35,907 nt of DNA from a virus, in IMG/VR virus record IMGVR_UViG_3300042503_000341, positions 1 to 35,907 of that record; one strand, 5' to 3'. Within the stretch, counting starts at the first letter, position 1. Each line of letters starts with the position of its first letter. Shown here piece by piece: positions 9,357-25,635 of this stretch. The notes beneath the pieces were generated by a model, which saw only the letters and a program-made list of their open reading frames with translations, did no database searches and had not been told where the DNA came from. The position numbers were made by a program, and so were the translations under genes.

Positions 9357-9503
9357 TTACCATTTTTTATATAATTCAAGCTCTTCTTTAAGAACCTTGA
9401 TTTCTTTTTCTTGTCTACTTACTTTTCTATCTGATATAACTAAAGATATAAAAAGATAAACGATTAATAGTATCATGCTTATGAATATTGCTCTAGGTAT
9501 CAT
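9357..9503 (-). CDS. Candidate small inner-membrane spanin (i-spanin-like), 48 aa
   Basis: ATG at 9503 overlaps the endolysin stop as ATGA; TAA at 9357-9359. The N-terminus is a single membrane helix (AIFISMILLIVYLFISLVI, about residues 5-23), followed directly by a charged coiled coil (SDRKVSRQEKEIKVLKEEL). This one-helix plus coiled-coil form, directly after the endolysin, is typical of small i-spanins (Rz class). It is very short, and no lipoprotein partner was seen nearby. A lone membrane-anchored coiled coil with another role is possible. Confidence 0.55.
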   Translation of the reverse strand: MIPRAIFISMILLIVYLFISLVISDRKVSRQEKEIKVLKEELELYKKW

Positions 9504-10096
9504 GATAATAATTGATGATACTCTTTGAAATGTTTAATTCTATCAGGAAGTCCTATGACACCGCCATTAACTCTTTTTGTAACCTTTGTTACTACATCTT
9601 CTGATGCACCTTGGTCAGATATAGCATTTAGGCCATTCTTAGACCAAAACCATGCAGCAGAAAGAAGAGGGTATTTTGTAGAAACTAAATCAGGATTAGC
9701 AATTATATCATCCTCAACAGATTTATCGAATGCTGTATAGTTGCTCCTGCCTGTCAATTGAATATAACCTCTACCTCTAAATCTAAAGCCATCTCCACTC
9801 GCTTGATTTCCGTTACCCATTCTGTTTGCGTAAACGACATTAGCAATCTTTTCAGGCTTACGTTCAAACTCTTTGGCACTTATTGGAGTAAAATACTTTT
9901 TGAATATATTAGCCAATCCCTTTGCACTATAGTTTAGGTTTTCGGCAGTTGCTCTGAATCCACCTGATTCATGTCCTGTTTGAGCTAAAAAATGAGCCAA
10001 ACGTAACGGGGTATTTACGCCAAATTTTTCAGAAACTAATGGAATCTGAGCTATTACAGAATCTGGTATGTGACCTTTTAACTTATCTAGTTTCAT
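9500..10096 (-). CDS. GH19 chitinase-like endolysin
   Basis: 198-aa peptidoglycan-degrading endolysin that opens the cell wall at the end of infection. The glycoside-hydrolase-19 pattern is clear: LAHFLAQTGHESGGF with catalytic Glu43, TAENLNYSA with Glu52, then YANRMGNG, DGFRFRGRGYIQLTGRSNY (about residues 108-126) and a C-terminal AAWFW segment. It lacks a signal peptide, so release needs the adjacent holin. Its ATG overlaps the holin stop (TAATG), and its stop overlaps the spanin-like gene. Length and composition fit phage GH19 lysozyme-like enzymes. Confidence 0.93.
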   Translation of the reverse strand: MKLDKLKGHIPDSVIAQIPLVSEKFGVNTPLRLAHFLAQTGHESGGFRATAENLNYSAKGLANIFKKYFTPISAKEFERKPEKIANVVYANRMGNGNQASGDGFRFRGRGYIQLTGRSNYTAFDKSVEDDIIANPDLVSTKYPLLSAAWFWSKNGLNAISDQGASEDVVTKVTKRVNGGVIGLPDRIKHFKEYHQLLS

Positions 10097-10344
10097 TATT
10101 GCTTTTCTTTTAAGTTTTTGTTACCAAATACAGCTTCTACTCCTGTAATGCCACACATAGTCATTGCAGTATACATCAATCCATTAAATACAATAGGTTC
10201 GATAACAAATGTAACACCGGCCACACCTGTAATGATGTCTGCTAGTGCATATAGAACCATTAATACAAATGATACAAAACCTAGTACAGCCTTTTGATTT
10301 ACGTCAGACTTGTCGCTGAACATTCTAAGTAAAAACTCTTTCAT
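10096..10344 (-). CDS. Holin-like membrane protein
   Basis: Start taken at 10344 (MKEFLLRMFSDKSDVNQ) because that ATG follows the upstream stop by one base (TAATATG); an in-frame ATG at 10374 would overlap the upstream gene. The 82-aa product has a basic N-terminus, two hydrophobic segments (VLGFVSFVLMVLYALADII and a glycine-rich region up to about residue 73) and a charged tail (NKNLKEKQ). This is the form of a two-span holin that makes the inner-membrane hole for the endolysin. It directly precedes the endolysin gene with a TAATG overlap. Confidence 0.78.
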   Translation of the reverse strand: MKEFLLRMFSDKSDVNQKAVLGFVSFVLMVLYALADIITGVAGVTFVIEPIVFNGLMYTAMTMCGITGVEAVFGNKNLKEKQ

Positions 10345-10345
10345 A

Positions 10346-10957
10346 TTATTTAATTTTCCAATATAATGACGCATTTACAAATGGAACTTTGTTTATGTCC
10401 ACACCTGCCCCTACGCCGTAAATTTTATCACACTTCGTTTTTATGAGAAAATTAGCTTGTACGTTATTCACAAAGTTAACCTTATCAAACGAAGCACCCA
10501 AACCCCAGAATATCTGCATTTTAGGTAGCTCCTTAACAATAGTTGTCTCTTTAATAGTACGCTCTTTTACTTTAGCGTTGTATAATCTGCTAACAATAGC
10601 GTTCTTGCTGATTGTATCTGTAATAGCTACGTATCCTAGTGAGTCATTGAGCAATAACGTATCCTTGTATACGTTCTTTGCATAGTAATGCATTAGGATA
10701 GCCATCGTATCAATAGGCTTATCTACAGGGATAGCTACATAAATGGTAGTATCGTGGTAGATATCTTCCCCTTTTACCTTCTTGATGGTTACTTTGTCGA
10801 TATATGTAGTATCGATATCATGTTTAATAACCTCGTATGGCTTACCATTTACATATTTGATTGTAGGAGAAAATGGGTTATGAACACCATTTAACTTGAT
10901 GTATACCGCCAAGGCAACTATCATAAAAAGACCAACTACTTGTAATGTTTTCTTCAT
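10346..10957 (-). CDS. Membrane-anchored periplasmic protein with beta-rich C-terminus, possible unimolecular spanin
   Basis: 203 aa. An N-terminal hydrophobic helix (LQVVGLFMIVALAVYIKL) probably anchors it in the inner membrane. A long polar, Thr/Asp/Lys-rich periplasmic region (DTTYIDKVTIKKVKGEDIYHD...) follows. The last 55 residues are glycine/aromatic beta-strands (FWGLGASFDKV, IYGVGAGVDINK, NASLYWKIK) like a small outer-membrane hairpin sheet. A helix-linker-beta layout immediately before the holin and endolysin suggests a spanin linking both membranes; this is inference. Similar proteins with a terminal SLYWKI-type strand occur in other Bacteroidota phages, to my recollection. Confidence 0.65.
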   Translation of the reverse strand: MKKTLQVVGLFMIVALAVYIKLNGVHNPFSPTIKYVNGKPYEVIKHDIDTTYIDKVTIKKVKGEDIYHDTTIYVAIPVDKPIDTMAILMHYYAKNVYKDTLLLNDSLGYVAITDTISKNAIVSRLYNAKVKERTIKETTIVKELPKMQIFWGLGASFDKVNFVNNVQANFLIKTKCDKIYGVGAGVDINKVPFVNASLYWKIK

Positions 10958-10974
10958 TGTTTTATAATTTAACG

Positions 10975-10982
10975 CAAATTTA
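10975..10982 (-). promoter_or_regulatory. Late promoter -7 element TAAATTTG before the lysis genes
   Basis: Minus-strand TAAATTTGC, ending 18 nt before the ATG at 10957. It overlaps the 3' end of the upstream gene. A TTG lies about 21 nt further up, a poor -33 match. It could give the lysis cassette its own late transcript. Confidence 0.45.
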
Positions 10983-12218
10983 CAAATTAAATCTAGAGCC
11001 TACCAATAGTCCGATTGTCTTGCTAGGTCCTCCCATATACTTAAGATTGGCACTTATCCTAAACTTCTTGGATAAAGCCAAGTCAAACGTATTCCCAAAT
11101 ATATAAGATATCTGCTTATTGACCCCTAGGTCCCTAGACCCCATGGCATACGATACAGGAGCTCCCATCAAAAAGAACTCAGGTATTATTGTAATTCTAC
11201 GATTAATAACTATAGCTCTCATACCAAACAACGTAACAGAGCTCATAGTAAATATTTGTTTAGCTGTTTCAGATGGTATTCTCATACCTATAACAGCTAG
11301 ATTATATCCTAAAATGTAGGATTTAACCATCGTTACATAAGAATACGCCCCTATATGCGTGAAACTTCCATCATTATAAGCTGTTGTGTAAGAGTAGGTA
11401 GATATGCCACATAATTGGTTATCCTTGAACTGCATCTTGGAATACCTGCTAGATAGGGCAAATTGCTTTAAATTTGACCATATAATTGCCGTAGTGCCGT
11501 AAGACACATCTCCAGCTAAAGATGACCTAGAAAGGCCTAAATTGGCCATTAAATTAAAGTCCCCGTCAATCACTTGAACAGAACTTAAATCAGAAGAGAA
11601 AACTATTGGCGTCATTGCCGCTTTATTGCCCCCTTTCTTCTTCTCTTCCTTCTTTTCTTCCTTCTTATCCTCCTTTTTCTCCTCCTTACTATCCTCCTTA
11701 GATTCCGATTTAGACTCCTCTTTGCTCTCGCTTTTAGACGAACTTTCTTCGCTTTTTGATGAGCCTCCTTCACTTTTGGAAGAACTACCCTCACTTTGTG
11801 ACGAAGATGAACTAGAACTACCCCCACTTTGTGACGACGAGGACGATGCAGCTGGTGCGGGAGGCGGAGTTGGTGGCGGAGGAGGCGGAGCTGCTGCTGC
11901 TACACTTGCTGCTACCGCATTAGCGACAGTCTGTGTTGCTACCTGTGTAGTTACTTGAGCCACAGGGCACGGGGCTGCGTATTCAGCATACACCCGATTT
12001 ATCCACGCCATCAAATTGCCATTAGATACATCTGCCGATGTAAAGTATCTTGACTTACCCATAAACACTATGGTAGTTCCTTGCATAGGGACTACAAATG
12101 TTGTAACCTTCTTAGTGCACGGGTCTACGAAAGTGCTCGTAATTATTTGAGAATACGAGAATATTGGTAGTAATACTACTGATATGTAAAGTAAAATAAA
12201 CTTATTTCGTAAAGACAT
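10980..12218 (-). CDS. Exported protein: N-terminal domain, Pro/Ser/Lys-Glu linker, C-terminal outer-membrane barrel-like domain
   Basis: 412 aa. The signal peptide (NKFILLYISVVLLPIFSYSQ) is of Bacteroidota type. After a small two-cysteine domain (DPCTKKV...APCPVAQ, about residues 30-90) comes an Ala/Pro stretch (PPPPPPTPPPAP), then a long linker rich in serine, then in lysine and glutamate (about residues 120-200). The last 210 residues are beta-strand-like with alternating residues and a C-terminal RFNL, resembling an outer-membrane barrel. The start overlaps the CsgG-like gene by 17 nt, so the two are probably made together. A role in the outer membrane with the linker spanning the periplasm is inferred; no family recognised. 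Confidence 0.7.
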   Translation of the reverse strand: MSLRNKFILLYISVVLLPIFSYSQIITSTFVDPCTKKVTTFVVPMQGTTIVFMGKSRYFTSADVSNGNLMAWINRVYAEYAAPCPVAQVTTQVATQTVANAVAASVAAAAPPPPPPTPPPAPAASSSSSQSGGSSSSSSSQSEGSSSKSEGGSSKSEESSSKSESKEESKSESKEDSKEEKKEDKKEEKKEEKKKGGNKAAMTPIVFSSDLSSVQVIDGDFNLMANLGLSRSSLAGDVSYGTTAIIWSNLKQFALSSRYSKMQFKDNQLCGISTYSYTTAYNDGSFTHIGAYSYVTMVKSYILGYNLAVIGMRIPSETAKQIFTMSSVTLFGMRAIVINRRITIIPEFFLMGAPVSYAMGSRDLGVNKQISYIFGNTFDLALSKKFRISANLKYMGGPSKTIGLLVGSRFNL

Positions 12219-12915
12219 TCTTTTTAACCATTCTACTTAGGATGCGAGCGCACGCAATATCTAGCGCTTTTTTAGTTGCTGTTCCTATGGTAGATTGATT
12301 AAATTTAACTTCTGATAAGTTAGCGTCGTTTAATAAACTTGCTTCCCTAGTTGTCTTTGCTTCACCAAGACCAGAAGCGGCAATAATTTCCCCTGTTTCT
12401 GCGTTAGTAAATCTAACTTGTAGACCTATACGAGTAACTACAGTTTCCTTTATTCCGTCCTTTACCCTTATTTCTTCATCTTCAGATACGCTATAGTCAT
12501 AACATTCTATCTCAACAAAGTAATGAGCTAGTCTAATCTTTCCTCGTCCGTCCAACTTATCTTGAGTGATTCCTGATTGGCTCGCTTGGAATTGCTTAAC
12601 CATTCTATTCTTAATCTCTGTCTTGTCTTCTGTAAACGTGAATCTGTTGAGGTTTTCAAGATATTCCAACGTGATATTAGCGACGCCAAGGCCGACCCTC
12701 TTCTCTTTGAGCTCAGGGTATTGTTCATACATTTCATCTGATATTCCGCATTTAAGTATTTGTATTGGTATAGTAGGTCCGTCATAATCCATAAACTGAC
12801 TTATATCAATCTTTGTCTCAAACGAAGCCTTATAGTTCTCTGTAGTTGTTTTAGCAACCTGAGCTTGTAACAAATTTGTATATAAAAATGTTACAAAGAA
12901 TAATATCTTTTTCAT
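12202..12915 (-). CDS. CsgG-like secretion-channel protein
   Basis: 237-aa exported protein (signal MKKILFFVTFLYTNLLQAQ, cleavage after QAQ). The body follows the CsgG pattern: GLGVANITLEYLENLNRF, a mixed helix with KNRMVKQFQASQSG, LAHYFVEIECYDYS, RIGLQVRFTNAETGEIIAASG and the terminal helix GTATKKALDIACARIL. Host CsgG forms a nine-subunit outer-membrane pore for export of curli subunits. Unlike E. coli CsgG it has no lipobox Cys after the signal, and no curli subunit or CsgE/CsgF is recognisable beside it. A pore for phage or host export is inferred. It lies in a block of exported proteins downstream of the tail-fibre genes. Confidence 0.82.
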   Translation of the reverse strand: MKKILFFVTFLYTNLLQAQVAKTTTENYKASFETKIDISQFMDYDGPTIPIQILKCGISDEMYEQYPELKEKRVGLGVANITLEYLENLNRFTFTEDKTEIKNRMVKQFQASQSGITQDKLDGRGKIRLAHYFVEIECYDYSVSEDEEIRVKDGIKETVVTRIGLQVRFTNAETGEIIAASGLGEAKTTREASLLNDANLSEVKFNQSTIGTATKKALDIACARILSRMVKKNVFTK

Positions 12916-12918
12916 ATA

Positions 12919-13758
12919 TTAAAAGTTAATACCTAGTCCAAAAGTTGTGCTATTGATTACAGGATCATAATCAGCCTTGATTGTGAAATTTTTATAATCA
13001 TGCAGAGCCCCTACTTTAATTGTAGTAAATCTATCTAAATACTTAGGGAACGTAATATATCCTATATCGTCCTTACCTCTCCACTTTACATCTTCACTAA
13101 TGCTACCAATCATAAAATGGATACCTGTTCTTTTGATTCTTTTACCTGCCCCAATATAAAAACTATTCCTTTGAACTAAATCTCCAACTAATGGAAAGTC
13201 AACTTGGGTTATGCTTCCGAATGGATAAAATGTTGAGTTGTCTCTTTCTACGCTTGAGTTATACTCTGCTATAAGATACGCTTTGCCACCTACTGTAAAG
13301 AATCCACCTAACTGATTGTCTTTTGTCTTTTGAATACCAAAGCTTATTATAGGTTTCTTGCCTCTAATAGTATCTCTTTTACCATCCTTGTAAACATATA
13401 TTCTTGCAGGCTGTCTGTATCCGAAATCATTCCAATACCAACTAGGCTGCCAGAACCACCAATTTGCTCCAAATCCAGGAGCTCCCCACATATCCCATCT
13501 ATTCCATCCCCAACCCCAACCATTTCCTAGCCAAGGGTCGTTGACGATAATATTTGAACCTGGTTTTGTTTCTATAGGTCTATTAAACTCTCTTGGTGAT
13601 TCGTCTCTCCATCTGCTGATATTGTCTCTTTGAGGCATTGATTGTTGAAACGATTGAGTGCTTCTTTGCATTTGAGGTGCGCCACCTCCTCTCCAATTAC
13701 TAACTTGCGAGAAAGATAATATTGGAAGTAAAAATAGTAGTATTGGTAAGTTTTTCAT
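12919..13758 (-). CDS. Exported outer-membrane-like protein with a Trp/Gly-rich segment
   Basis: Start set at 13758 (279 aa), where MKNLPILLFLLPILSFSQ is a clean signal peptide; the upstream ATG at 13794 would add a charged, non-signal extension, and 13758 overlaps the preceding stop (TAATG). After a Gln/Arg-rich stretch comes an extraordinary segment (about residues 80-115: NGWGWGWNRWDMWGAPG, ANWWFWQPSWYWNDFGY) with about 11 tryptophans. The rest is beta-rich, with QLGGFFTVGGKAY and a terminal SKLGINF-like strand (TFGLGINF), consistent with an outer-membrane barrel. It lies just upstream of the CsgG-like gene, which suggests a shared job at the outer membrane. Confidence 0.65.
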   Translation of the reverse strand: MKNLPILLFLLPILSFSQVSNWRGGGAPQMQRSTQSFQQSMPQRDNISRWRDESPREFNRPIETKPGSNIIVNDPWLGNGWGWGWNRWDMWGAPGFGANWWFWQPSWYWNDFGYRQPARIYVYKDGKRDTIRGKKPIISFGIQKTKDNQLGGFFTVGGKAYLIAEYNSSVERDNSTFYPFGSITQVDFPLVGDLVQRNSFYIGAGKRIKRTGIHFMIGSISEDVKWRGKDDIGYITFPKYLDRFTTIKVGALHDYKNFTIKADYDPVINSTTFGLGINF

Positions 13759-14354
13759 TATGCTTTGTCTTTTAAAAGTCCACAAATTTGACATTCTAAT
13801 TCGCCATCATTATCTGCATCTCCCCATTCATGTTGACATTGTCTGTGTGCTTGAAACTCAAATTCTAGTTTCTCCATTTCTTGGTCATGTTCTTGCTTGT
13901 CAACTTCCATAGCCTGTCTGTGCTCCTGCTCATCTTTATTTAAATCATAGTTCTGTTTGTTTTCTACAACAGCTAATTCTCTAGCAGCTTGAGCACCTGC
14001 AACAAAGGCATCAGGGATAGCTGGTCCAGCTGGCTTATTCGTCTCCTTCATATCATTTGCATGAGAAAGAGATACACCATCTTCTTCGTCCATCTTTTGA
14101 ACAAGTAACTTGTCCTTATCTGCGTCAGAGTAATAGTAGTCTATAATCTTATTATAGCTACCGCTAAAAACTCCGACCAATAGTAATAATATTTCTCTTA
14201 GTCCTGCCGGGATTTCAATTCCTATCGCTACTGCTACAAATAAGCCTAGCAATATAAGTACAAATATCCCTAGTACGATGGCTGTTACGTACCATCTTTT
14301 CTGCATCAAATTGTTTAACAGGTCTTTAAAACCTGACTGCTGTTTGCTGTCCAT
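13758..14354 (-). CDS. Two-span membrane protein with coiled coil and C-terminal zinc finger
   Basis: 198 aa. Two adjacent hydrophobic helices (YVTAIVLGIFVLILLGLFVAV and IPAGLREILLLLVGVFSGSY, about residues 22-70) precede a helical region (DKDKLLVQKMDEED, then a charged KQEHDQEMEKLEFEFQAHRQ coiled coil). The end has the zinc-binding CQHEWGDADNDGELECQICG (Cys, His, Cys, Cys). Such proteins are frequent near phage lysis and structural genes. It might be a holin-like or a structural scaffold in the membrane; unassigned. It overlaps a tiny basic gene at its start. Confidence 0.7.
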   Translation of the reverse strand: MDSKQQSGFKDLLNNLMQKRWYVTAIVLGIFVLILLGLFVAVAIGIEIPAGLREILLLLVGVFSGSYNKIIDYYYSDADKDKLLVQKMDEEDGVSLSHANDMKETNKPAGPAIPDAFVAGAQAARELAVVENKQNYDLNKDEQEHRQAMEVDKQEHDQEMEKLEFEFQAHRQCQHEWGDADNDGELECQICGLLKDKA

Positions 14355-14455
14355 ATGTTACTTATTATTTGTTGATTGTGTTTTATAATTGCAGAAGTCT
14401 TTAAACCAGACTTTCTACTTCTCATTGGTTTTTTCTTTTTCTGTGCGTTTGCCAT
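14315..14455 (-). CDS. Tiny basic protein, 46 aa
   Basis: ATG at 14455, TAA at 14315-14317, in a different frame from the neighbouring gene and overlapping its first 40 nt. The sequence starts MANAQKKKKPMRSRKSG and is strongly basic, then becomes neutral (IIKHNQQIISNIW). It fills an otherwise empty 100-nt gap, which is the main support. No family recognised; it could be a spurious ORF. Confidence 0.4.
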   Translation of the reverse strand: MANAQKKKKPMRSRKSGLKTSAIIKHNQQIISNIWTANSSQVLKTC

Positions 14456-14458
14456 ATA

Positions 14459-14779
14459 TTACCATTTAGGAGCCTCTTCCTTAAACTCATCACCTTCTTT
14501 TTTCTTATTCTTTGCAGGTTGAGCGGCTGGTTGGGCTGCAGGTTTTTCTACAACTCTTTCTTTAATAATAGTAGTTCCACCGCTAGCTTGTTGAGCCTGT
14601 TGGTTAGAGTTAGTAATATTGATTACAGGAGCTGCGGCAGGGGTAGCCTTATCTTCGCTTCCACCACCAAATAATGTTGATCCTAACCAAGCACCACCTG
14701 CTGTTACAACTGTAGCCAAAGTACCTACAACGGTTTTTTTTAGACTAGACATTGTGCCTTCTTGTTGTTCTTCTGACAT
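14459..14779 (-). CDS. Small protein with one membrane segment and Ala/Pro/Lys tail, 106 aa
   Basis: An acidic start (MSEEQQEGTM) leads into a hydrophobic Gly/Ala/Thr/Val helix (VVGTLATVVTAGGAWLGSTLF, about residues 17-37). A Gln/Asn-rich region (INITNSNQQAQQASGG) and VVEK lead into alternating Ala/Pro/Gln and a Lys/Glu-rich tail (KNKKKEGDEFKEEAPKW). The layout is like structural or membrane-anchored phage proteins with flexible tails. It lies between the lipoprotein and the two-span protein. No function assigned. Confidence 0.65.
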   Translation of the reverse strand: MSEEQQEGTMSSLKKTVVGTLATVVTAGGAWLGSTLFGGGSEDKATPAAAPVINITNSNQQAQQASGGTTIIKERVVEKPAAQPAAQPAKNKKKEGDEFKEEAPKW

Positions 14780-14784
14780 AAAAT

Positions 14785-15147
14785 TTATTTTATAATTATA
14801 GGGTATTTAACTTCTTTCCCATCAATATCTATAAAAATAAGATCATAATCTTTCTTTTCCAAATTTGATAGGTCTAATATTTTTGTTGTCACATCGGTAG
14901 ATGCTGTAAATCCTTCTTTTTTAACAGGCTTGTCTGAGCCAAATGGAACTATCTGAATAGAATATTTTGCCCCTATTGTAGTGCCAAATTCAGCCGTAAT
15001 TACGTTAGCTGATTGCTTGATAGACTTAATAGATGTTGACGTTGATTTAACGCCTAAATCAATCACTTCTGGCATTACTAAATCTATTTTAGTACAAGCC
15101 ATCATAATAAGCGTAACAATACAAACTAAAATGAACTTATTTTTCAT
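14785..15147 (-). CDS. Lipoprotein with beta-sandwich-like domain, 120 aa
   Basis: The N-terminus (MKNKFILVCIVTLIMMACTKI) has a lipobox around Cys18 (MMAC), so it is lipidated and membrane-anchored. The remaining 100 residues alternate strand-like segments (SIKQSANVITAEFGTTIGAKYSIQIV, DYDLIFIDIDGKEVKYPIII) compatible with a small fibronectin-like or Ig-like fold. It directly follows the cohesin/dockerin-type gene by two bases, suggesting co-expression and joint surface display. No specific family recognised. Confidence 0.75.
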   Translation of the reverse strand: MKNKFILVCIVTLIMMACTKIDLVMPEVIDLGVKSTSTSIKSIKQSANVITAEFGTTIGAKYSIQIVPFGSDKPVKKEGFTASTDVTTKILDLSNLEKKDYDLIFIDIDGKEVKYPIIIK

Positions 15148-15148
15148 A

Positions 15149-17224
15149 TTAAAAATTTTTATAACCTGTTAGTTTTATTTGAGTAGAGTTTAAGTTAATT
15201 CCTAGCTGATTGCCTTTATCATCACTAGCGTCCATTATCTGAGATACTCTGATAGAAGTTAGCATATCAACACCGCTTTCTTTTGCAGAGAATTTAAGCT
15301 TAAATGGAACGTTTGCTCCTTTGATTGGAAGAGACTTCGTTTGGTCTAAAGAACCAAACTTAACTCTACCATTCTTACTATCTGCAAAGATATACCAAGA
15401 ATTAGGAACATTGGCAACTAGCTCCTCAAATTTTAATTTAGACTCATCAAAAACAAACTCAAATTGAAGTCCACTCATATTAGCCCCATTTGTATTTACA
15501 GCCACAGGTACTTCAATGCTGTTAGATGTGATTGTCATGTTAGATAATGTAACATCTATAGCAGATACATTGTTTGGAGTATTGATGAATCCATTTGTAG
15601 AATTAACCTGTATAACAGGAGCCCCATTTTCAGACAATACAACCCTAGATGAATGAGACCTGTTTACGTCCCCCCATAATAGATATTTTAAATCTAGAAA
15701 CTGATTTGTACCTAAAGCTCCTGTTCTAAATATCGTTCTAGGCATTGTGATATTTTTCCAATTTGACGCTGTAACAGACCCCCAAGAATTGCTAGGATTA
15801 ACGTTGAATTGAAATTCAGCCTGTAAAGCATAGTCAGTATTGGCGTTATTCATATTTCTGATATTGCCCAAGAATACTGAACTACCATCGCTTACTTTTT
15901 GCATGTTAGAAGGAACTTTAAATGAAGCCCAAGCCGCATCTTCGCTAACGTATTCAACAGGACCAGAATAAATATCAAATATTTGTAGGCTCTTTATCTG
16001 ATTAGGAGTAATACCTGTGCCGACAAATTCTCTCATATCCACAAGTACTTTAGCAACTCCTTGACCATATCCGTTTGGAGTAACTATACACCATTCTGTA
16101 GCTCCTGCCATGGTTGTGCCATCATTTGCCATCCATGTAGGAATACTCATAAATCCGCCACTTCCAATCGTATACTGACTAGGTAATGCAACTAGCGTAT
16201 CTAGTCCTGCAATTTGAGCAAGCAATCTAGGTAAATCTCCTCCATCAATCCTTTGGTTTCTATTGATGTCGGCAGCGTACAATGATTGACCTGTCTTTAA
16301 ATTTTTTCCATTAGAACCATCTAAGCCCATGCTAGTAAATTCGCTTTGAGCTGTGGTAAAATCAGATATTGTAATGGCATTGTTGTATATGCTATATAGC
16401 TTATCCATTTCATACATAACAGAAACTTCATATACTCTATTAGCAGCCAATAAAGATTGATTAATATCTACGTCTCCTGAAGATGTTACATTGAATAATT
16501 GACCCTGATTTGTAAGCGTATCTCTAAAAGAAACTCTTATAGAAGACAAGCTTTGTAATGCAGAACTTAAATCAACTTTAGCTGTGACGAACTTGCCAAA
16601 GTTCTGATTCATATTAACAGTAGTCAATAATGGAGTTTCCATAATAGTAGGAGTTTCTACACCCTGGTTAGTCCAACCTGCTACAAAGTTTAATTTAATA
16701 GGATTGAATGTGTACGCTGTACTTGTAGTCCTAAGCCTAAATTTAATTACAATCAATCTATCGTAACTGGTATACGGCATAGCTGATGTAGTAGCCCAAG
16801 TTAAAGTAGCTCTAATAATTGCATTATCTCCATTAGCTCCATTAAACGTATAGTTCTGATTTTGGTAGTTTGTAGTACCATTAGACGTGCTATTCTGCGC
16901 GTTTGAATTCCACGTATAGTTAGGATAATTAGTCCAAGATAATTGTATATTAGAGCCCTGTGGCAATACTCCACCATTACCCCCTGTGCCCGTATGATTT
17001 ATAGATATGATTTCAAAGTTCTTTTGGTCATACATAACATCAAATAGCAATTGCTTGGTATTACTATTACCATTCCCATTTGCCTGTATAATGTAATCGA
17101 ACTCTCCACCTCTGTTTAGAGATGTTCCACCTACGGAAGATAGTGCTCTAAATCTAATTTGAGCACTTGAAGATGTCACAAATATTTGAAAAATTGTGAC
17201 AAAAAATAATAATTTTTTAATCAT
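15149..17224 (-). CDS. Large secreted cohesin/dockerin-like protein
   Basis: 691 aa with a signal peptide (IKKLLFFVTIFQIFVTSSSAQ). The N-terminal domain (to about 215) is Asn/Gly/Thr-rich and beta-like. Residues 319-330 form a dockerin/EF-hand loop (D319-x-N321-x-N323...D327..D330: DINRNQRIDGGD). A second partial one is at 519-525 (DVNRSHS). The C-terminus (about 552-691) resembles a cohesin (VPVAVNTNGANMSGLQFEF, then VKFGSLDQTK and VPFKLKFSAKESG). In other bacteria cohesin and dockerin bind each other outside the cell, so it may self-assemble or build surface structures. It overlaps the CsgG-like gene at 17221 by ATGA. Confidence 0.75.
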   Translation of the reverse strand: MIKKLLFFVTIFQIFVTSSSAQIRFRALSSVGGTSLNRGGEFDYIIQANGNGNSNTKQLLFDVMYDQKNFEIISINHTGTGGNGGVLPQGSNIQLSWTNYPNYTWNSNAQNSTSNGTTNYQNQNYTFNGANGDNAIIRATLTWATTSAMPYTSYDRLIVIKFRLRTTSTAYTFNPIKLNFVAGWTNQGVETPTIMETPLLTTVNMNQNFGKFVTAKVDLSSALQSLSSIRVSFRDTLTNQGQLFNVTSSGDVDINQSLLAANRVYEVSVMYEMDKLYSIYNNAITISDFTTAQSEFTSMGLDGSNGKNLKTGQSLYAADINRNQRIDGGDLPRLLAQIAGLDTLVALPSQYTIGSGGFMSIPTWMANDGTTMAGATEWCIVTPNGYGQGVAKVLVDMREFVGTGITPNQIKSLQIFDIYSGPVEYVSEDAAWASFKVPSNMQKVSDGSSVFLGNIRNMNNANTDYALQAEFQFNVNPSNSWGSVTASNWKNITMPRTIFRTGALGTNQFLDLKYLLWGDVNRSHSSRVVLSENGAPVIQVNSTNGFINTPNNVSAIDVTLSNMTITSNSIEVPVAVNTNGANMSGLQFEFVFDESKLKFEELVANVPNSWYIFADSKNGRVKFGSLDQTKSLPIKGANVPFKLKFSAKESGVDMLTSIRVSQIMDASDDKGNQLGINLNSTQIKLTGYKNF

Positions 17225-17709
17225 AGCAGCTTGTTAACCAATGAATTACACGACTTTTTAATTGCTGTGCTTAGATTCTGTTGGTTAAACTTGCCATCGT
17301 TGCTAATGATGAGTGTTGAGGTTGATACTTCTGTTGCTTGTTCTTCTACGATATACTCTTTAGATTTTTTACCATCTCTTATAATATATCCTTTCATTCT
17401 AATCACAACAGCATTATCATCCTTATGGAATATGGATAAGTTACTCTTCGTAGTTAATACATCCATATAAATAAGTTCTGCAAATATCTGATTTTTTGAG
17501 CTAGGAGACAAATTGTACCCGCTCTCCTGTAAATACTCTTCTAGTATATTCTTAACTCCGAACTCTAGTTTTCTGTTCCCGGCCAAAGGGCCTAATTTTA
17601 TTGAGTTTTTTACTTCCGCAACCACAATCTCTTGTGAATACGCAAGTATGGAAAATAAGAAAGCCCCCAATGTAAGGAGGCTTTTCTTATATGATAACAT
17701 TTTTGACAT
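17221..17709 (-). CDS. Exported CsgG-like small protein, 162 aa
   Basis: Signal peptide (KSLLTLGAFLFSILAYSQ) followed by VVAEVKNSIKLGPLAGNRKLEFGVKNILEEYLQESGYNL. This matches the early CsgG strand-helix order, and the C-terminus QQNLSTAIKKSCNSLVNKLL matches the final helix of the 237-aa CsgG-like protein at 12202. The middle strand (DDNAVVIRMKGYIIRDGKKS) fits as well. It is much shorter than true CsgG, so it would not include a full membrane beta-hairpin; it could be a chaperone-like or partial paralogue. An intrinsic terminator-like hairpin lies within its signal-peptide codons. It directly precedes the cohesin-type gene. Confidence 0.6.
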   Translation of the reverse strand: MSKMLSYKKSLLTLGAFLFSILAYSQEIVVAEVKNSIKLGPLAGNRKLEFGVKNILEEYLQESGYNLSPSSKNQIFAELIYMDVLTTKSNLSIFHKDDNAVVIRMKGYIIRDGKKSKEYIVEEQATEVSTSTLIISNDGKFNQQNLSTAIKKSCNSLVNKLL

Positions 17710-18971: not shown

Positions 18972-19805
18972 TTAACTCGCAACGTCTTGATTGTATATTG
19001 CGGTTACTTCAGACCCTGAAAGCTCCCTAGAATATAACCTCACCACAGCTATTCTTCCTGTATAGAATTCTGCTATATTGGTAGCCCCTGTTGCGTTATA
19101 CTGAGCGCCAATAAGAAATAACCCAGGAGCAGCATAGTTCATGCTTACCCCTAGGGAAGAAGACGTTATTAAAGAGCCATTTACATATAATCTTGCCGTT
19201 GAGCCGTCATAAGTTAATGTAGCATGTATCCATGTGTTCAATGAGAATCCATATGCTAAGTCTACAAAAGTAGTTCCGCTACCAGAAATCCTACCATACA
19301 GAGTTGTCCCATTTATCCATAACTGATACCCCTGAAATGTTGTTGAGCCGTTAAAGTTAGTACCGGCCAAAATCATAGGATAAGAAGACTCTGTAGGATA
19401 AAACCATACATTAAGTGTTACTCTATTTTTTCCGCTTGGTTCAGGGAATTCGTAGTTAGGAAAGCTTACATATCTACCATCTTGATAAGTACCAAATGGA
19501 TTAGACCCCTGAAATTCAAAGCTAGAGCCATTCCACACAGGGTTAATTGCAGACTTATTAGTAAGCGTGCCATGATTTCCCTTACCACTAATATCAAACC
19601 ATGTTGTTCCACTTCCTGGGTATGAACTTGAGTTGTTTGCTCTTAAATGAAGAAGAAGATCTGTATCGTAACCATAGAACTCACTAATGGCATCAGGAGT
19701 ACTAAACCCAGCTAAAGAGCTGAGCGTTCTTAAGCTACCTGAACTACTTCCTAGTTCTGTCCGTATAGCTCCAATACCTAAAGCTCCACTACTTGGTAAG
19801 GGCAT
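18972..19805 (-). CDS. LamG-domain (concanavalin-A-like) tail protein
   Basis: 277 aa. The N-terminal 50 residues match the phage tail-protein lead LPSSGALGIGAIRTELG...SL...P.AISEFYGYD seen in many fibre-adjacent proteins. From residue 50 the sequence is a LamG-type jelly roll: LHLRANNSSSYPGSGTTWFD, GKGNHGTLTN, VTLNVWFYPTESSYP, WIHATLTYDGSTARLYVNGSL and YTGRIAVVRLYSRELSGSEV. Such domains bind glycans, so a receptor-binding or accessory fibre role is likely. It overlaps the end of the long fibre gene by 17 nt, indicating tight coupling. Confidence 0.82.
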   Translation of the reverse strand: MPLPSSGALGIGAIRTELGSSSGSLRTLSSLAGFSTPDAISEFYGYDTDLLLHLRANNSSSYPGSGTTWFDISGKGNHGTLTNKSAINPVWNGSSFEFQGSNPFGTYQDGRYVSFPNYEFPEPSGKNRVTLNVWFYPTESSYPMILAGTNFNGSTTFQGYQLWINGTTLYGRISGSGTTFVDLAYGFSLNTWIHATLTYDGSTARLYVNGSLITSSSLGVSMNYAAPGLFLIGAQYNATGATNIAEFYTGRIAVVRLYSRELSGSEVTAIYNQDVAS

Positions 19806-22800
19806 TTAATTCAGATTTAAGATATTCAATTTGTTTTTGCTGCTCTTTGATAGCTTCTACCAATAAACCTACCATGTTACCGTAAGCTACGTTATATAAT
19901 CCTGTATCTTTATCTTGATTAACAACTTCAGGTAATACGGTTAAAACTTCTTGCGCTATAACACCAGAATGACGTTTTGCTTTATCAATAGTATCATTTC
20001 TTGTAAAAGTTACACCACGTATTCCTTGGACTTTTTCTAAAGCATCTTTAATGACTTCAACATTTTCTTTTATGCGGCTATCAGAAAAAGCAGTAATATC
20101 TCCACCTGCGGTTATGGCTGCTCCTACTACTAAGTTTCCTCCATGCCAAGCATAACCATCTGCTCTAAATCTATGATATAGGTTGTCTGATATAGCTCCA
20201 CAACCAAAACCAGCACAAGAGTTACCATATATTCTTATTTCTTCATTAGAATCATCATTCAATTGAAACTCTAACCAGCTTAATCCATTACCTCTTGCAG
20301 AGTTTTCATCTATCCAACGTAAGCAATATGGGTCACTTGTGGCGCTACCACCAGTAGTTCTAAAGTTTATCCTGTTGACATTTAACTCACCAGCAAAAGC
20401 ATTTACGGTCCCGTTCAAATTGGTTGTACCATTCAAATTGGTTGTGCCGCTAACTGAAAGATTTAATGCTGTTACATAGTTATCATTACTAATCCTAAGT
20501 ATAGTACTTCCATTAAGGTTATCAATACCATTATGCGGATTTCTATTAGCAGTAAATTGTGAGTATCCAAAATCTAAACGTGTACCTGACCCATTAGACC
20601 CAATTACCCATTGTTTATCAGCAGTGTTGTGAGCAAATTGTATAGTTGGTCCATGAGAAGGATTGCTTGTAACAGTATGATTCAATGTTAAAACAGGATA
20701 CTGACCGTGCAAATAAACAACGGGTCTATAGTTAGCATCAATTAAGGTATATGTAGGCGTAGTTGTACCAAGCATTAATGTTGGACCATAATCACCACTA
20801 TTACCAATAAGACGTGCTGTAAGGCTGTTGCTGTGAACAAAATCTATATTTGAAGAACCTGTACTCATTGTTAGGGTACTAGAAGCATAAACTCCTCCTC
20901 TATCCCAAGCAGCTCCTAGTCTTACTTCACCACTATAGTTTTCTGGGTTATTTATGTAAAGATTACCAACAGAGTCAAAATATCCTATATTCCCTTTACC
21001 ATTACCTACGCTTCTCCCATTAACAGAAGCTGCATTAATATTCCAGCTTCCAGAAGCTCCACCTCCAGTTAAACTTGGAGCATAAGAATTAAAATTAGCT
21101 GAGTGTAAAGATTGTACAGGAGCAAAGTTTACTTGTTTATTTGTAGTAGGTAAGCCACTATTTGTTATGCTTGTTACTCTATTTGTAGGAAAAGAAGCAA
21201 AAGCAGCGTAAACTTTTACATTAAACCCTTCCCAATAACCACCACTTGGCCACCAAAAACATAAGTTACCATTAAAGTTTATTGCTCTTATACCATCTAT
21301 ATATTTACCATTAGAATATCCACCTGTAGAAATAATTGTATTGTCATATATATAACCTTGTATTTGTATATCAAATGGTATTGTATTAAAATATGAGTTA
21401 CCTTTTATTTCTAAAACAAATGCGTCACCAGACGAGACACCATAATTAATGCTAGTCTGAACAAGAGTACCTGAAGGGAAATCTCTATCACTATGTCTAA
21501 AGTCAAGTAAGCTATATGTAGATGTATTTGCTGATGCTGCGTTACCTGTAATACTAATATCCCAAGTCCCATTATTATGTACAAATCTATAACCAGTGTT
21601 ACCATAATTAACAGCACCATTAGCAAGAATCTTTATACCTCCATTACCCCAACTACCATTTCTAGCAATCATAAACTCATCAGAAGCCATAGTAGCAACC
21701 TGATACCAAGAGCCACTAGAAACACCTCCTGAACGACCCATTCTAATACCTGCACCGCTTGAGCTATCAACCCATGTTGCATGCTGGTTATAAGTCATTA
21801 ATCCTGGTTCAGAACCACCTCCTGCACCAAGAACACCATATGAACCAGAATCACCCCAAGCATTTGATGCAACAAAAGAAAGTTTATTCCATCCACCTGT
21901 TGTTGATATTGTAGTAGACCATATGCCATTTATTGCAAGATTACCTGATATTGTACCACCAGATAAAGGAAGTGAGTAAGAGTTGTAGTTCCCTGAATGA
22001 AGAATAACATTAGAATCAATAAGCGGATCCCCTCCATTAGGGATAGACATTCTTGGATAAAATGTACCACCATCATAATAACCTAATCTTACGCCATTTC
22101 CAGAATTATGTCCATATACACTTGTCCATGCTCCACTAACACCCATGCCATATCTTCCACTAGCTCCCATTTGTATAAGACCTAGTACTTCAGAACCATT
22201 ACCAACATTTATATTTGAAGTGAATGTTGCATATCCTGTAATTAATCCACATGCCCCATAGTTAGGAGAACCTGCATTTCCGTTTCTTATTTCAATTGTT
22301 CTAGTACCCGGTATAGCACTTATAAATAAATCTGCTGATGCAGCGGCATTAAACTGAATCTGTGCGTTGTTCCCATTAAGGCCAATATTATTACCAAAGT
22401 TTACATTACCTCCACCACTATAAATTAATGCACTAACAATATAATTAGAAGTTCTTAAGATAGCATGCGTAACATCATCACCGGTTCTTACATACTGATT
22501 CATGTTGGCAGCATAAACGTCAGCTCCATCATTTAAAAGTCTTCTCCAAGGATAGAAACCATCAGCTTCTGGGCCATAACCCCATCCTCTAAACCATAGC
22601 TGTTGTGAACTATACCCACCAGCAATTTGAAGGCCTGTATCTGCACCTTTAGCTACTATAAGTTGACCATAAGAGTTTGGTGCATTAGAAGGTTGTGCTT
22701 CTGCATTAAAAAATCCAGAAGATAAAATAGAGTTATAGTTTGTAGTAAATCTTGTGCCGTCTTGTCTCGTAGCAAATCCTCCATACGATGCTGTAATATA

Positions 22801-25635
22801 ACCAGGACCATTTGTAAGCTGGTTTAGATTAGTTAAATTTCCTGAATGCCATACAGTTGACCCGTGCCAATAAAGTACTCCATCAGTTCTCATTTCTAAG
22901 AACTTACCTTGATTCCCACTTATATGAAAGGCTATACCCGTAGTAGTATTATCATATGATTCTGTCCATAAAGCAGCAGTTGTATAATTTCCAGCAGTTT
23001 GAGATCTTCTTGCAAATATTCCACCTGTAAATACAACAGAGCTACTTGTGCTAGAACCTCTACTTGTAACGCTTTGTAAAGTGTCTGTTTCTGTGTATCC
23101 TGTTATATAACCTGAGTTATTAGTAAACTGAGATATGTTCATGTTGGATAATGAACCTGCACTACCTGTAACAGATATACCCCAACTACCACTTGCTCCA
23201 CCCCCTGTTTTAGTTGGTGCATAATCATTATAGTTAGCTGAAGAAAGCATAGTCACCCATGCAGACCAGTTATCACAACAATCTCTTAAAGTTCTAAAAT
23301 ACATCACAGCACTTGGAGAATGCCAAGAAGCAGCAATCTCCATAGCTCTCCCAGATATAACATATTGAGCAGATATATCATAAGTAGTAGGACTATTAGC
23401 TCCTCCGGTATAAGCACTATATATAGCAAGACCACTACTTACTTTTGTAGTTCTATCTATATTGTAGCTAACACCACTGCCAAGTATAGCCCAATTTGAG
23501 GATGTGACATATCCACTAGGATTACTACTATTATAAGGAGTATATCCTAATGCTGTAGTAACCATTCCTGATGTAATACCTGTTATGTATCCACTAGGAT
23601 TACTAGCTAAATAGTATGTAGAGTTATCATATGTAATTGTTGTGCCAGACGCTTTAACAAAACCTGTTCCGTTGAGTTGCGCCTGTTTACCGCCAATAGA
23701 AGCTGCAATAGTAGTAGCGAAATTAGGGTCATCGCCAAGAGCTGCCGCAAGCTCATTAAGTGTATCTAATGTCCCTGGAGCTGAATCTACTAAATTAGAA
23801 ATAGCTGTATTTACGTAAGATTGTGTAGCATAGCCCGTTAATGCAGAAGACGTGATATATCCTGCACCATTAGTAAGCTGATTGTTATTTGTTATTGTAT
23901 TTGTAATAGTAGTTGTTCCGCCACTTGTAGAAACGCTTATTCCAGAACCTGCTAGTATTGATAATATACCCGTGTTGCTAATACTTAGCGAACCTCCCGA
24001 TGTACTTACACTAATACCACTACCTGCCAAAGCAGATAATAATCCTGTATTACTAATACTGAGTGTTCCTCCCGATGTACTTACACTAATACCGCTTCCG
24101 GCAGACGCTGATAGCAAACCAGTGTTACTAATGTTCAATGTTCCTCCTGATGTACTTACGCTGATACCTGAACCTGCTGTTCCTGATAATAAGCCTGTAT
24201 TTGAAACAGTTGCAACGCCACCACTTGTGGACACACTTATACCTGAACCTGCTTGAACCGATGATACACCTGCAGTAATACTCCAAGACCTATCAGCAGA
24301 CAAGTCAAATGAAGTTCCATTTATTGTTAACGTTCTTGAAGTTGGAACGTATCCACTTAAGCTTGGTATTTGACTAACAAGAGCTAACGTTCCTGAAGCT
24401 CCTGGCATAGTGTAAACATAAGTATTGTTACTTATTGTTGAACCTAATGTTAATTGACCTGATACTCTTAACGTACCATTTATATCAGTTGTAAATGCTG
24501 ATGCTGTTCTTGTTCCAATTAAAACTTGACCACCTGCTGGTTGAAGTCTTAATGCTCCCGAAGCAACAGAAAGTCCATAATATGATTGCAATTCTGCGAA
24601 TGCTGTGGCGGTGTTGCCACCTGCGGTAAATTGTACGAAACCATTATTTCCGCCTGTTGCAGGATTAGAGTTTATTAAAATTAATTGTGCAAGAGTACCT
24701 GAAGTATTTTTAATAATAACTCCTCCATTAACATCTAGCTTAAAGTTAGCTGAGTCATAAGGAGAAGTTGTATTAATACCTATACCGCTACCATTATCGT
24801 ATATTATACTATCTGTTAATGTTGTAGCTCCTGTAGCTTTAGGTACATATCCTGTAGTTAAATTACCCGTATGCGTACCTACTGACCAACTTCTATCCGC
24901 ACTTAAATCATAAGAAGTTCCATTTATAGTTAACGTTCTAGCATTGGTTGTAGGAGTATATCCTAGCAATGTAGAGATTGACTTCATCTTGTATAAAGAT
25001 GTAGAAGTCTCATATGCTAAAACTGCATTGTCAGAAGGGGTAGATGTTATCTGAACGTTGTGAAGCTCTTGTAGCTCAAATCCGTTCTGTACCTTAACAA
25101 ATATTTCTCCGTTATTAGCATTTTTTCTAGTAACAATACCAATGAAAACTAGATGGTCAGGAGCATAAGGTTTAGCACCTAAGCCGTATATTAAATTGCC
25201 ATCTGTTCCTAGCCATACAGGATCCCCTTCAGTTCCTGCAGCCATTGTATTTAATCCAGAAAGCAACCCTTCTGTAATAACAAATCCCTTGCCATTTATT
25301 GAAAGGTCTTGTGCTATTAATCCTAATGTTTTGCTTGATGTAGCCTCTGATGCGTTTGAAGCTTTGCCAACTATCATATTAGTGCCATCAGCGCTTGTCA
25401 CATATACAGCCTGACCTTTAGTTAGAGCTACGCCTGCCTTTACTTCATGCTGAAGCGTAGACGTATAAGCTGCAGCTCCACCTGCTCCAATATCATTGTA
25501 GAGCTCTTGGCCTGTTCTGTATTTTACTATGCCATTAGAATCTATGACAAGAAACTTGTCAGTATCAGTATTAGCGTCAGCTACTGAATTTAATCCTAAT
25601 GTTCCGTATAAGGATAAATTAGATAATATTTGCAT
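19789..25635 (-). CDS. Long tail fibre with C-terminal S74 intramolecular chaperone
   Basis: 1948-aa fibre, almost certainly a trimeric receptor-binding tail fibre. The N-terminus (MQILSNLSLYGTLGLNSV) resembles that of the next virion protein upstream. The shaft contains five 25-residue repeats of AGSGISVSTSGG...NTG (about residues 460-577) and repeated NGTSYDLSADRSW and GGGASGSW units. The last 100 residues are a peptidase S74 chaperone: SDSRIKENV (candidate cleavage before Ser1851), GVIAQEVLTVLPEVV, and a terminal coiled coil (EAIKEQQKQIEYLKSEL). S74 domains help the fibre trimerise and then cut themselves off. The function is firm; the receptor is unknown. Confidence 0.92.
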   Translation of the reverse strand: MQILSNLSLYGTLGLNSVADANTDTDKFLVIDSNGIVKYRTGQELYNDIGAGGAAAYTSTLQHEVKAGVALTKGQAVYVTSADGTNMIVGKASNASEATSSKTLGLIAQDLSINGKGFVITEGLLSGLNTMAAGTEGDPVWLGTDGNLIYGLGAKPYAPDHLVFIGIVTRKNANNGEIFVKVQNGFELQELHNVQITSTPSDNAVLAYETSTSLYKMKSISTLLGYTPTTNARTLTINGTSYDLSADRSWSVGTHTGNLTTGYVPKATGATTLTDSIIYDNGSGIGINTTSPYDSANFKLDVNGGVIIKNTSGTLAQLILINSNPATGGNNGFVQFTAGGNTATAFAELQSYYGLSVASGALRLQPAGGQVLIGTRTASAFTTDINGTLRVSGQLTLGSTISNNTYVYTMPGASGTLALVSQIPSLSGYVPTSRTLTINGTSFDLSADRSWSITAGVSSVQAGSGISVSTSGGVATVSNTGLLSGTAGSGISVSTSGGTLNISNTGLLSASAGSGISVSTSGGTLSISNTGLLSALAGSGISVSTSGGSLSISNTGILSILAGSGISVSTSGGTTTITNTITNNNQLTNGAGYITSSALTGYATQSYVNTAISNLVDSAPGTLDTLNELAAALGDDPNFATTIAASIGGKQAQLNGTGFVKASGTTITYDNSTYYLASNPSGYITGITSGMVTTALGYTPYNSSNPSGYVTSSNWAILGSGVSYNIDRTTKVSSGLAIYSAYTGGANSPTTYDISAQYVISGRAMEIAASWHSPSAVMYFRTLRDCCDNWSAWVTMLSSANYNDYAPTKTGGGASGSWGISVTGSAGSLSNMNISQFTNNSGYITGYTETDTLQSVTSRGSSTSSSVVFTGGIFARRSQTAGNYTTAALWTESYDNTTTGIAFHISGNQGKFLEMRTDGVLYWHGSTVWHSGNLTNLNQLTNGPGYITASYGGFATRQDGTRFTTNYNSILSSGFFNAEAQPSNAPNSYGQLIVAKGADTGLQIAGGYSSQQLWFRGWGYGPEADGFYPWRRLLNDGADVYAANMNQYVRTGDDVTHAILRTSNYIVSALIYSGGGNVNFGNNIGLNGNNAQIQFNAAASADLFISAIPGTRTIEIRNGNAGSPNYGACGLITGYATFTSNINVGNGSEVLGLIQMGASGRYGMGVSGAWTSVYGHNSGNGVRLGYYDGGTFYPRMSIPNGGDPLIDSNVILHSGNYNSYSLPLSGGTISGNLAINGIWSTTISTTGGWNKLSFVASNAWGDSGSYGVLGAGGGSEPGLMTYNQHATWVDSSSGAGIRMGRSGGVSSGSWYQVATMASDEFMIARNGSWGNGGIKILANGAVNYGNTGYRFVHNNGTWDISITGNAASANTSTYSLLDFRHSDRDFPSGTLVQTSINYGVSSGDAFVLEIKGNSYFNTIPFDIQIQGYIYDNTIISTGGYSNGKYIDGIRAINFNGNLCFWWPSGGYWEGFNVKVYAAFASFPTNRVTSITNSGLPTTNKQVNFAPVQSLHSANFNSYAPSLTGGGASGSWNINAASVNGRSVGNGKGNIGYFDSVGNLYINNPENYSGEVRLGAAWDRGGVYASSTLTMSTGSSNIDFVHSNSLTARLIGNSGDYGPTLMLGTTTPTYTLIDANYRPVVYLHGQYPVLTLNHTVTSNPSHGPTIQFAHNTADKQWVIGSNGSGTRLDFGYSQFTANRNPHNGIDNLNGSTILRISNDNYVTALNLSVSGTTNLNGTTNLNGTVNAFAGELNVNRINFRTTGGSATSDPYCLRWIDENSARGNGLSWLEFQLNDDSNEEIRIYGNSCAGFGCGAISDNLYHRFRADGYAWHGGNLVVGAAITAGGDITAFSDSRIKENVEVIKDALEKVQGIRGVTFTRNDTIDKAKRHSGVIAQEVLTVLPEVVNQDKDTGLYNVAYGNMVGLLVEAIKEQQKQIEYLKSELNALTK
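23905..24252 (-). repeat. Five tandem 75-bp repeats inside the tail fibre
   Basis: Five copies of about 75 bp encode AGSGISVSTSGG-xxx-I-x-NTG-(L/I)LS-xx. The final residues before each repeat (SVQ, SGT, SAS, SAL, SIL) vary while AGSGISVSTSGG is constant. They are likely shaft modules that can expand or contract by recombination. They are too protein-like and lack spacers, so they are not a CRISPR array. Confidence 0.8.

Follow-up and report, generated by a model that had tools for sequence, protein, structure and literature searches.

The window analysed here is the whole of a 35,907-nucleotide stretch of viral DNA (IMG/VR record IMGVR_UViG_3300042503_000341, positions 1 to 35,907). Between its fibre-like genes (18972-25635) and an endolysin gene (9500-10096; PHROG 181, E = 8.5e-70), where an initial annotation had placed an exported envelope cassette, lies a run of open reading frames (ORFs), all on the minus strand and overlapping or almost abutting (Table 1). 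We refer to five of the gene families as S, COH, LP, CSG and A, and to the other genes by their first coordinates (14459, 13758 and 12919). This block is conserved and specific to phages; as a set of five to eight genes, it recurs in hundreds of aquatic phages. Its GC content (0.33 to 0.42) is the same as that of the remaining window. In a heuristic scan across family members, Sec-type signal peptides were called in 157/160 CSG, 166/167 A, 267/268 COH, 127/132 S and 15/15 12919 proteins, and a lipobox in 75 of 98 LP members; the signal peptides first read from the window are a property of nearly all family members.

Table 1. Features of the module and of the adjoining lysis region, by position in the window
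Feature	Position	Strand	Basis or remark
S, 162-aa (amino acid) exported protein, Lipoprotein_16 (YajG)/TraT-like, distant CSG relative	17221..17709	-	Pfam, shared C-terminal motif
COH, 691-aa exported protein: cohesin-like / dockerin-like / variable segment / cohesin; candidate cargo	15149..17224	-	Pfam Cohesin 1.4e-6
COH N-terminal cohesin-like domain, aa 22-215 tested	16580..17161	-	hhalign vs cohesin alignment 98.3%, E 2e-14
COH dockerin-like calcium-binding-type repeats, about aa 278-341	16202..16393	-	Read from sequence: NNAITISDF... AADINRNQRIDGGDL
COH variable segment, aa 361-480	15785..16144	-	Conservation 0.10-0.21 vs 0.40-0.80 elsewhere
COH C-terminal cohesin domain, aa 569-674, practically protein end	15203..15520	-	Pfam
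LP, lipoprotein: lipobox and domain resembling the sorting tail (C-terminal domain, CTD) of the type IX secretion system (T9SS)	14785..15147	-	PF18962, hhalign
LP CTD-like domain, aa 39-120	14788..15033	-	hhalign
14459, small conserved protein: weak hydrophobic segment, N/Q-rich tail, invariant C-terminal Trp	14459..14779	-	153/162 loci, alignment, hydropathy 1.25
13758, predicted inner-membrane protein: N-terminal hydrophobic segments, C-terminal CxH...CxxC motif	13758..14354	-	88/162 loci, alignment, hydropathy
12919, accessory exported protein, W/G-rich, putative barrel-like C-terminus; likely true start 13758	12919..13794	-	15/162 loci
CSG, CsgG-fold periplasmic protein, probably a ring-type soluble component (from model)	12202..12915	-	AlphaFold2 and Foldseek
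CSG acidic hairpin, equivalent of the first transmembrane hairpin (TM1) of CsgG	12421..12501	-	Positions 145-147 D/E in 53/53 members
A: signal peptide, small N-domain, helix, long low-complexity linker, C-terminal beta-barrel	10980..12218	-	AlphaFold2, Foldseek
A low-complexity Ser/Lys/Glu linker, aa 109-199	11622..11894	-	Predicted local distance difference test (pLDDT) <50; length varies in family
A C-terminal outer-membrane barrel, about 12 strands, aa 205-412	10983..11606	-	AlphaFold2, Foldseek
Lysis region adjoining module: 10346 membrane protein, holin-like 10096, GH19-type endolysin 9500	9500..10957	-	Outside core module

Relatives of CSG are encoded at 521 IMG/VR stretches, and S, used as a second starting point, led to 470. 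The genes occur together far more often than chance would allow. Among 82 CSG-centred loci, A and 14459 were each present in 76-82 and S, COH and LP each in 62-70; the S-derived sample, which partly overlaps the CSG-derived contigs, gave 52 loci with enough flank, with CSG and A in 51 of them and 14459, COH and LP in 52. The conserved neighbourhood that the initial annotation proposed looking for in related phages is there in both samples. Gene maps of the 82 loci show a usual order of S-COH(x1-2)-LP(x1-2)-14459-13758-CSG-A, with small insertions, and a second clade around the phage Immuto arranged as COH(x1-4)-14459-CSG-A-S, mostly without LP. The genes 14459 (153 of 162 loci) and 13758 (88 of 162) are part of the block, while 12919 (15 of 162) is an accessory gene. 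In one phage group, large ORFs of 827 aa and 398 aa stand between CSG and A (loci L033 and L049); it is possible that they are extra cargo.

The one cultured relative is the Flavobacterium myophage Immuto (Immutovirus), which encodes a CSG relative of 51% identity and whose CSG, A and S are annotated "hypothetical protein." Among 25 records with the module, the T4-like capsid family Gp23 was found in 15 and a tail sheath match in 17, and four records of 68-79 kb had neither; the module thus crosses phage types, being carried both by T4-like myophages and by phages of ~68 kb that have neither Gp23 nor a sheath. The module phages probably all infect Bacteroidota. Cellular genomes gave two matches only, both in a phage-like context on contigs within metagenome-assembled genomes (MAGs) binned as Flavobacterium and Bacteroidetes (L163, L164), which are probably phage sequence in bacterial bins; neither CSG nor S had a match in 296 other Bacteroidota genomes. 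CSG is 76-90% identical within the window clade. In pairs at 75-88% (about 83%) CSG identity, S and 14459 were about 50% identical, A 34% and COH 30%, and the greater divergence of A and COH than of the presumed machinery (CSG, S and 14459) is as expected of exposed proteins.

By its AlphaFold2 model (mean pLDDT 76), CSG has the CsgG fold. CsgG took the first 21 places when the model was compared with the PDB by Foldseek (E = 1.8e-7, TM-score about 0.5), followed by HpaA, PelC, FlgT and LptE, in agreement with the first description of 12202-12915 as CsgG-like. At the sequence level the family is remote: Pfam CsgG (PF03783) was matched by 2 of 53 members (best 1.9e-4), the hhalign comparison of CSG with CsgG gave a short, modest match only, and PDB single-sequence searches and profile searches with CSG and S yielded no relevant match. 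Curli-type export through a pore made of CSG, which had been considered initially, is not borne out. Judging from the model, CSG is probably not a membrane pore, since the window protein lacks a lipidation cysteine at its mature N-terminus, the hairpin equivalent to TM1 carries acidic residues at positions 145-147 in every one of the 53 aligned members, where small or hydrophobic residues predominate in the CsgG set, and the second CsgG-type hairpin (TM2) was not modelled, a polar low-confidence loop lying at 194-206. Most members have a signal-peptidase-I-type N-terminus, with a lipobox-like string in 19 of 160, mainly in one divergent clade. PelC is a CsgG-fold soluble ring without membrane hairpins that lies below the PelB outer-membrane barrel, and PelBC appeared with PelC in the fold searches of module proteins. 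By analogy, we infer that CSG may act as a PelC-type soluble ring.

The shorter protein S, also first described as CsgG-like, appears to be a distant relative of CSG. The two have a common C-terminal motif, FNQ..AiKK, and their hhalign match is again short and modest; Pfam Lipoprotein_16 was found in 26 of 35 S members (best 4.2e-6). An iterated hidden Markov model (HMM) search also connects S with CSG, which we take as supportive only, as drift may inflate the link. Matches of S to viral phosphoproteins were rejected as chance. S does not qualify as a TraT exclusion protein, with weak TraT matches in 3/35 members and a lipobox in 1/132. The N-terminus of S comes in two forms, a short signal peptide (39 members) and a long extension (20 members); in about a third of S proteins (e.g., L023:5555-6301), the extension replaces the short signal peptide and contains a likely membrane anchor.

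In the AlphaFold2 model of A, the N-domain (residues 25-80) is followed by a helix and then by a disordered linker (109-199), and the barrel starts at 205. Against the fold library, FapF filled the first 18 places (E = 3e-7), with autotransporter barrels next (E = 1.7e-5). The initial annotation saw two outer-membrane barrel-like proteins in the block; this FapF-like model upholds the one at 10980, and the C-terminus of 12919 is putatively barrel-like. The linker is long and variable across the family and rich in Ser, Ala, Lys and Glu; Pfam matches of A (Tim54, DDHD and others) arise from it and were discarded. The topology of A may be autotransporter-like, with the N-domain outside.

The description of 15149-17224 as a secreted cohesin/dockerin-like protein agrees with its Pfam and hhalign matches and with the family as a whole. 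Diverse COH members carry Cohesin (21/49), C-type lectin (12/49), T9SS tail (11/49; PF18962/TIGR04183, at the C-terminus) and PA14 (6/49) domains, as well as LamG and GEVED domains. Dockerin_1 was weakly matched by 5/49, those listed scoring under the curated cut-off. The wider COH set, collected by iterated HMM, is heterogeneous. In the Immuto clade, the COH parts sit on separate proteins: some are of the lectin or PA14 type, and another, of 243 aa (L091), combines cohesin with a T9SS tail. The initial annotation recognised no curli subunit, CsgE or CsgF and left the cargo open. The first part stands, as Pfam scans of the module proteins found no CsgE, CsgF or curlin family; the second does not, since from its domains the COH family is the obvious cargo candidate, with no curli-like subunit required.

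The COH protein of the window has no T9SS sorting tail of its own, and here LP becomes relevant. Its lipobox fits the lipoprotein first called at 14785, but LP also carries a domain resembling the T9SS tail. PF18962 was matched by 11/29 LP members (best 3.7e-5), and hhalign of LP with the COH tails gave 96.8% (E = 2.3e-10), compared with at most 4% for the remaining module families tested. The tail model used here was built from COH tails alone, an earlier iterated model having absorbed LP sequences; it found tails in 80 proteins of the locus set. Unlike a T9SS sorting domain, LP is short, has no other domain and is not the C-terminal part of a secreted cargo. A lipidated T9SS-tail-like domain points to surface anchoring in Bacteroidota, and not to curli. 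The surface export signal of Bacteroidota lipoproteins is C-x-K-(D/E)2 (PMC5080379), to which the LP N-terminus is a partial fit (K at +3 in 51/58, D/E at +5 in 38/58, +4 mostly hydrophobic).

LP genes and tails are matched in number. Among 127 loci, 67 lack LP and encode a single cohesin protein with a tail of its own, 29 pair a single tail-less cohesin protein with a single LP, and 28 have two of each. The number of LP genes thus equals the number of tail-less cohesin proteins in 124 of 127 loci, and two of the three exceptions (L027 and L100) look truncated. The rule holds in 58 of 61 loci after removal of near copies and in 52 of 52 of the S-derived sample. Tailed members have 93-99 residues after the cohesin domain, and tail-less ones have 0-4. 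The CSG tree shows at least two to three changes of tail state, including L035/L065 and L081 within the LP clade, and repeated changes in LP number; an independent-pairs test was not significant, the pairs being too few. The tail thus occurs in cis or, apparently, comes as a lipidated domain encoded by a gene of its own. We found no description of such a cis/trans arrangement in the literature searched.

Of the smaller proteins, every aligned member of the 14459 family ends in Trp, preceded by an N/Q-rich stretch. The CxH...CxxC end of 13758 looks metal-binding and is retained in most long members. The 12919 protein has a striking Trp/Gly-rich stretch (WGWGWNRWDMWG...NWWFWQPSWYW). Promoter-like sites did not exceed their frequency in shuffled sequences. 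Elsewhere in the window, the late-region proteins of 2082 aa (27931-34179) and 430 aa (34235-35527) had no PHROG match at 1e-3.

We favour, with a probability of roughly 0.58, the reading that the cassette is a phage surface display system for Bacteroidota hosts, which would assemble and anchor adhesin-like proteins on the infected cell. Going from the folds, domains, gene linkage and LP counts described above to localization, complex formation, export route and benefit, we imagine the following. COH and related cohesin, dockerin and lectin proteins would leave by Sec and then reach the exterior of the infected cell. There, the cargo would be anchored by its own T9SS sorting tail or, in this phage, by LP, one for each tail-less cohesin protein. 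A would be the outer-membrane channel or scaffold, with its long flexible linker and a barrel like that of FapF or of autotransporters, and CSG and S would form a periplasmic collar of CsgG/PelC/YajG fold beneath it; 14459 and 13758 may link the assembly to the inner membrane. Through cohesin-dockerin contacts, the exported proteins could coat or cross-link the cell surface. The most likely benefit would be to shield receptors, which could keep competing phages away or prevent progeny from being lost. Such shielding agrees with a coat on the cell surface and with the TraT-like signal of S, weak as this signal is. Aggregation of neighbouring hosts would come next; "sibling capture" of this kind has been proposed for phage CsgG (PMC7029224).

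Several points weigh against surface display. The FapF match of A has 9-10% identity and moderate TM-scores (0.39/0.58), hosts are established for a minority of the module phages only, and the LP/tail split mostly tracks two big CSG clades, with 2-3 supported changes only. LP might also be a plain beta-sandwich partner without a T9SS role. We are more tentative about a dedicated phage envelope organelle, in which self-linking cohesin-dockerin proteins would be exported by a FapF-like barrel seated on a periplasmic ring of CsgG fold, and a T9SS sorting domain acting in trans, as a separate lipoprotein, would anchor or escort the cognate cargo.

The nearest solved relatives of both A and CSG are amyloid-secretion proteins, and A keeps the FapF domain order of N-terminal part, linker and 12-strand barrel (PMC5557850). 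One can therefore envision that A and CSG/S export a fibre subunit in unfolded form, as the Fap and curli systems do. This seems unlikely to us: no curlin repeat, CsgE, CsgF or Fap-like subunit was recognised in the module, the candidate cargo is large, folded and multidomain, and autotransporters, too, match a 12-strand barrel. A little less likely still is that the module aids lysis by opening or destabilising the outer membrane, either ahead of lysis or in its course, a role suggested for the CsgG of phage Melnitz (PMC9004378). The module has inner- and outer-membrane parts and borders the lysis genes in the window, and an endolysin family lies within 7.5 kb of it in 48 of 89 loci, which is frequent but not general. 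In Immuto, however, the module adjoins genes for nuclease and nucleotide metabolism, and the endolysin lies about 6 kb past its end; CSG is without membrane hairpins, and a lysis aid would leave the lectin, cohesin and T9SS-tail cargo unexplained. That COH, LP and A instead decorate particles released through the envelope is suggested by the adhesin-type domains and the tail-fibre genes nearby, but we consider it improbable, as near-universal signal peptides, the lipobox and T9SS tails clash with the cytoplasmic assembly of tailed phages and the genome position of the module varies. The idea that the module is a neutral passenger, or was recently acquired from a host and does nothing for the phage, can be dismissed, given hundreds of phage contigs with a fixed partner set, the CSG identities within the window clade and the lack of cellular homologues beyond the two phage-like contigs.

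A multi-gene set conserved in hundreds of aquatic phages, large T4-like ones included, has hitherto gone unannotated. If it remodels the surface of the infected cell, it would represent a widespread layer of phage-host or phage-phage conflict in Bacteroidota. Immuto offers a cultivable test system, and the matched gene counts of the cis tail and the lipidated tail-like protein raise the question of whether a sorting domain can anchor or guide cargo in trans.

How does the module compare with known systems? We did not give it the curli or type VIII secretion label: the CsgG fold is there, but the hairpins, the lipidation and the operon partners are not. CSG resembles PelC in being a predicted ring-type CsgG-fold protein without membrane hairpins under an outer-membrane barrel; PelC, however, is a lipoprotein for polysaccharide export, and the module has no polysaccharide genes. 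Like FapF of the Pseudomonas Fap system, its top fold match, A has a signal peptide, an N-terminal part, a disordered linker and a 12-strand barrel, in the order described for FapF (PMC5557850), but identity is about 10%, the linker is much longer and charged/Ser-rich, and the N-domain is different, with conserved cysteines. No FapA-E or other Fap partner genes were seen in the module. FapF is a trimer whose helical plug has a double Phe, and A was modelled as a single chain. TraT, the surface exclusion protein, is a helical-barrel decamer (PMC11733297); the TraT matches of S are few and weak, most S members match Lipoprotein_16, and S is without a lipobox.

Among phages, the curli modules of pelagiphages and methylophages (HTVC008M, Melnitz; PMC7029224, PMC9599517, PMC9004378) likewise encode a CsgG-fold protein in an envelope-directed block. 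Theirs is a true CsgG (37-40% identical to that of E. coli), accompanied by CsgF, curlin repeats, FecR and adenylate cyclase; here, none of these partners was recognised, and barrel, cohesin and LP genes are found instead. A 1,499-base entry labelled Salmonella phage (OR851715.1) has a CsgG 95.7% identical to E. coli CsgG and is most likely host DNA, not a phage gene. In Cryophage (PMC7468147) and crAss-related phages (PMC6949934), T9SS type A sorting tails are found on phage-encoded proteins, among them one with PA14, but these are reported as isolated variable cargo genes, without CsgG-fold or FapF-like machinery or a separate lipidated tail. As far as the sequences tell, the module shares folds with the curli modules and T9SS cargo already described from phages, yet lacks the parts that define them.

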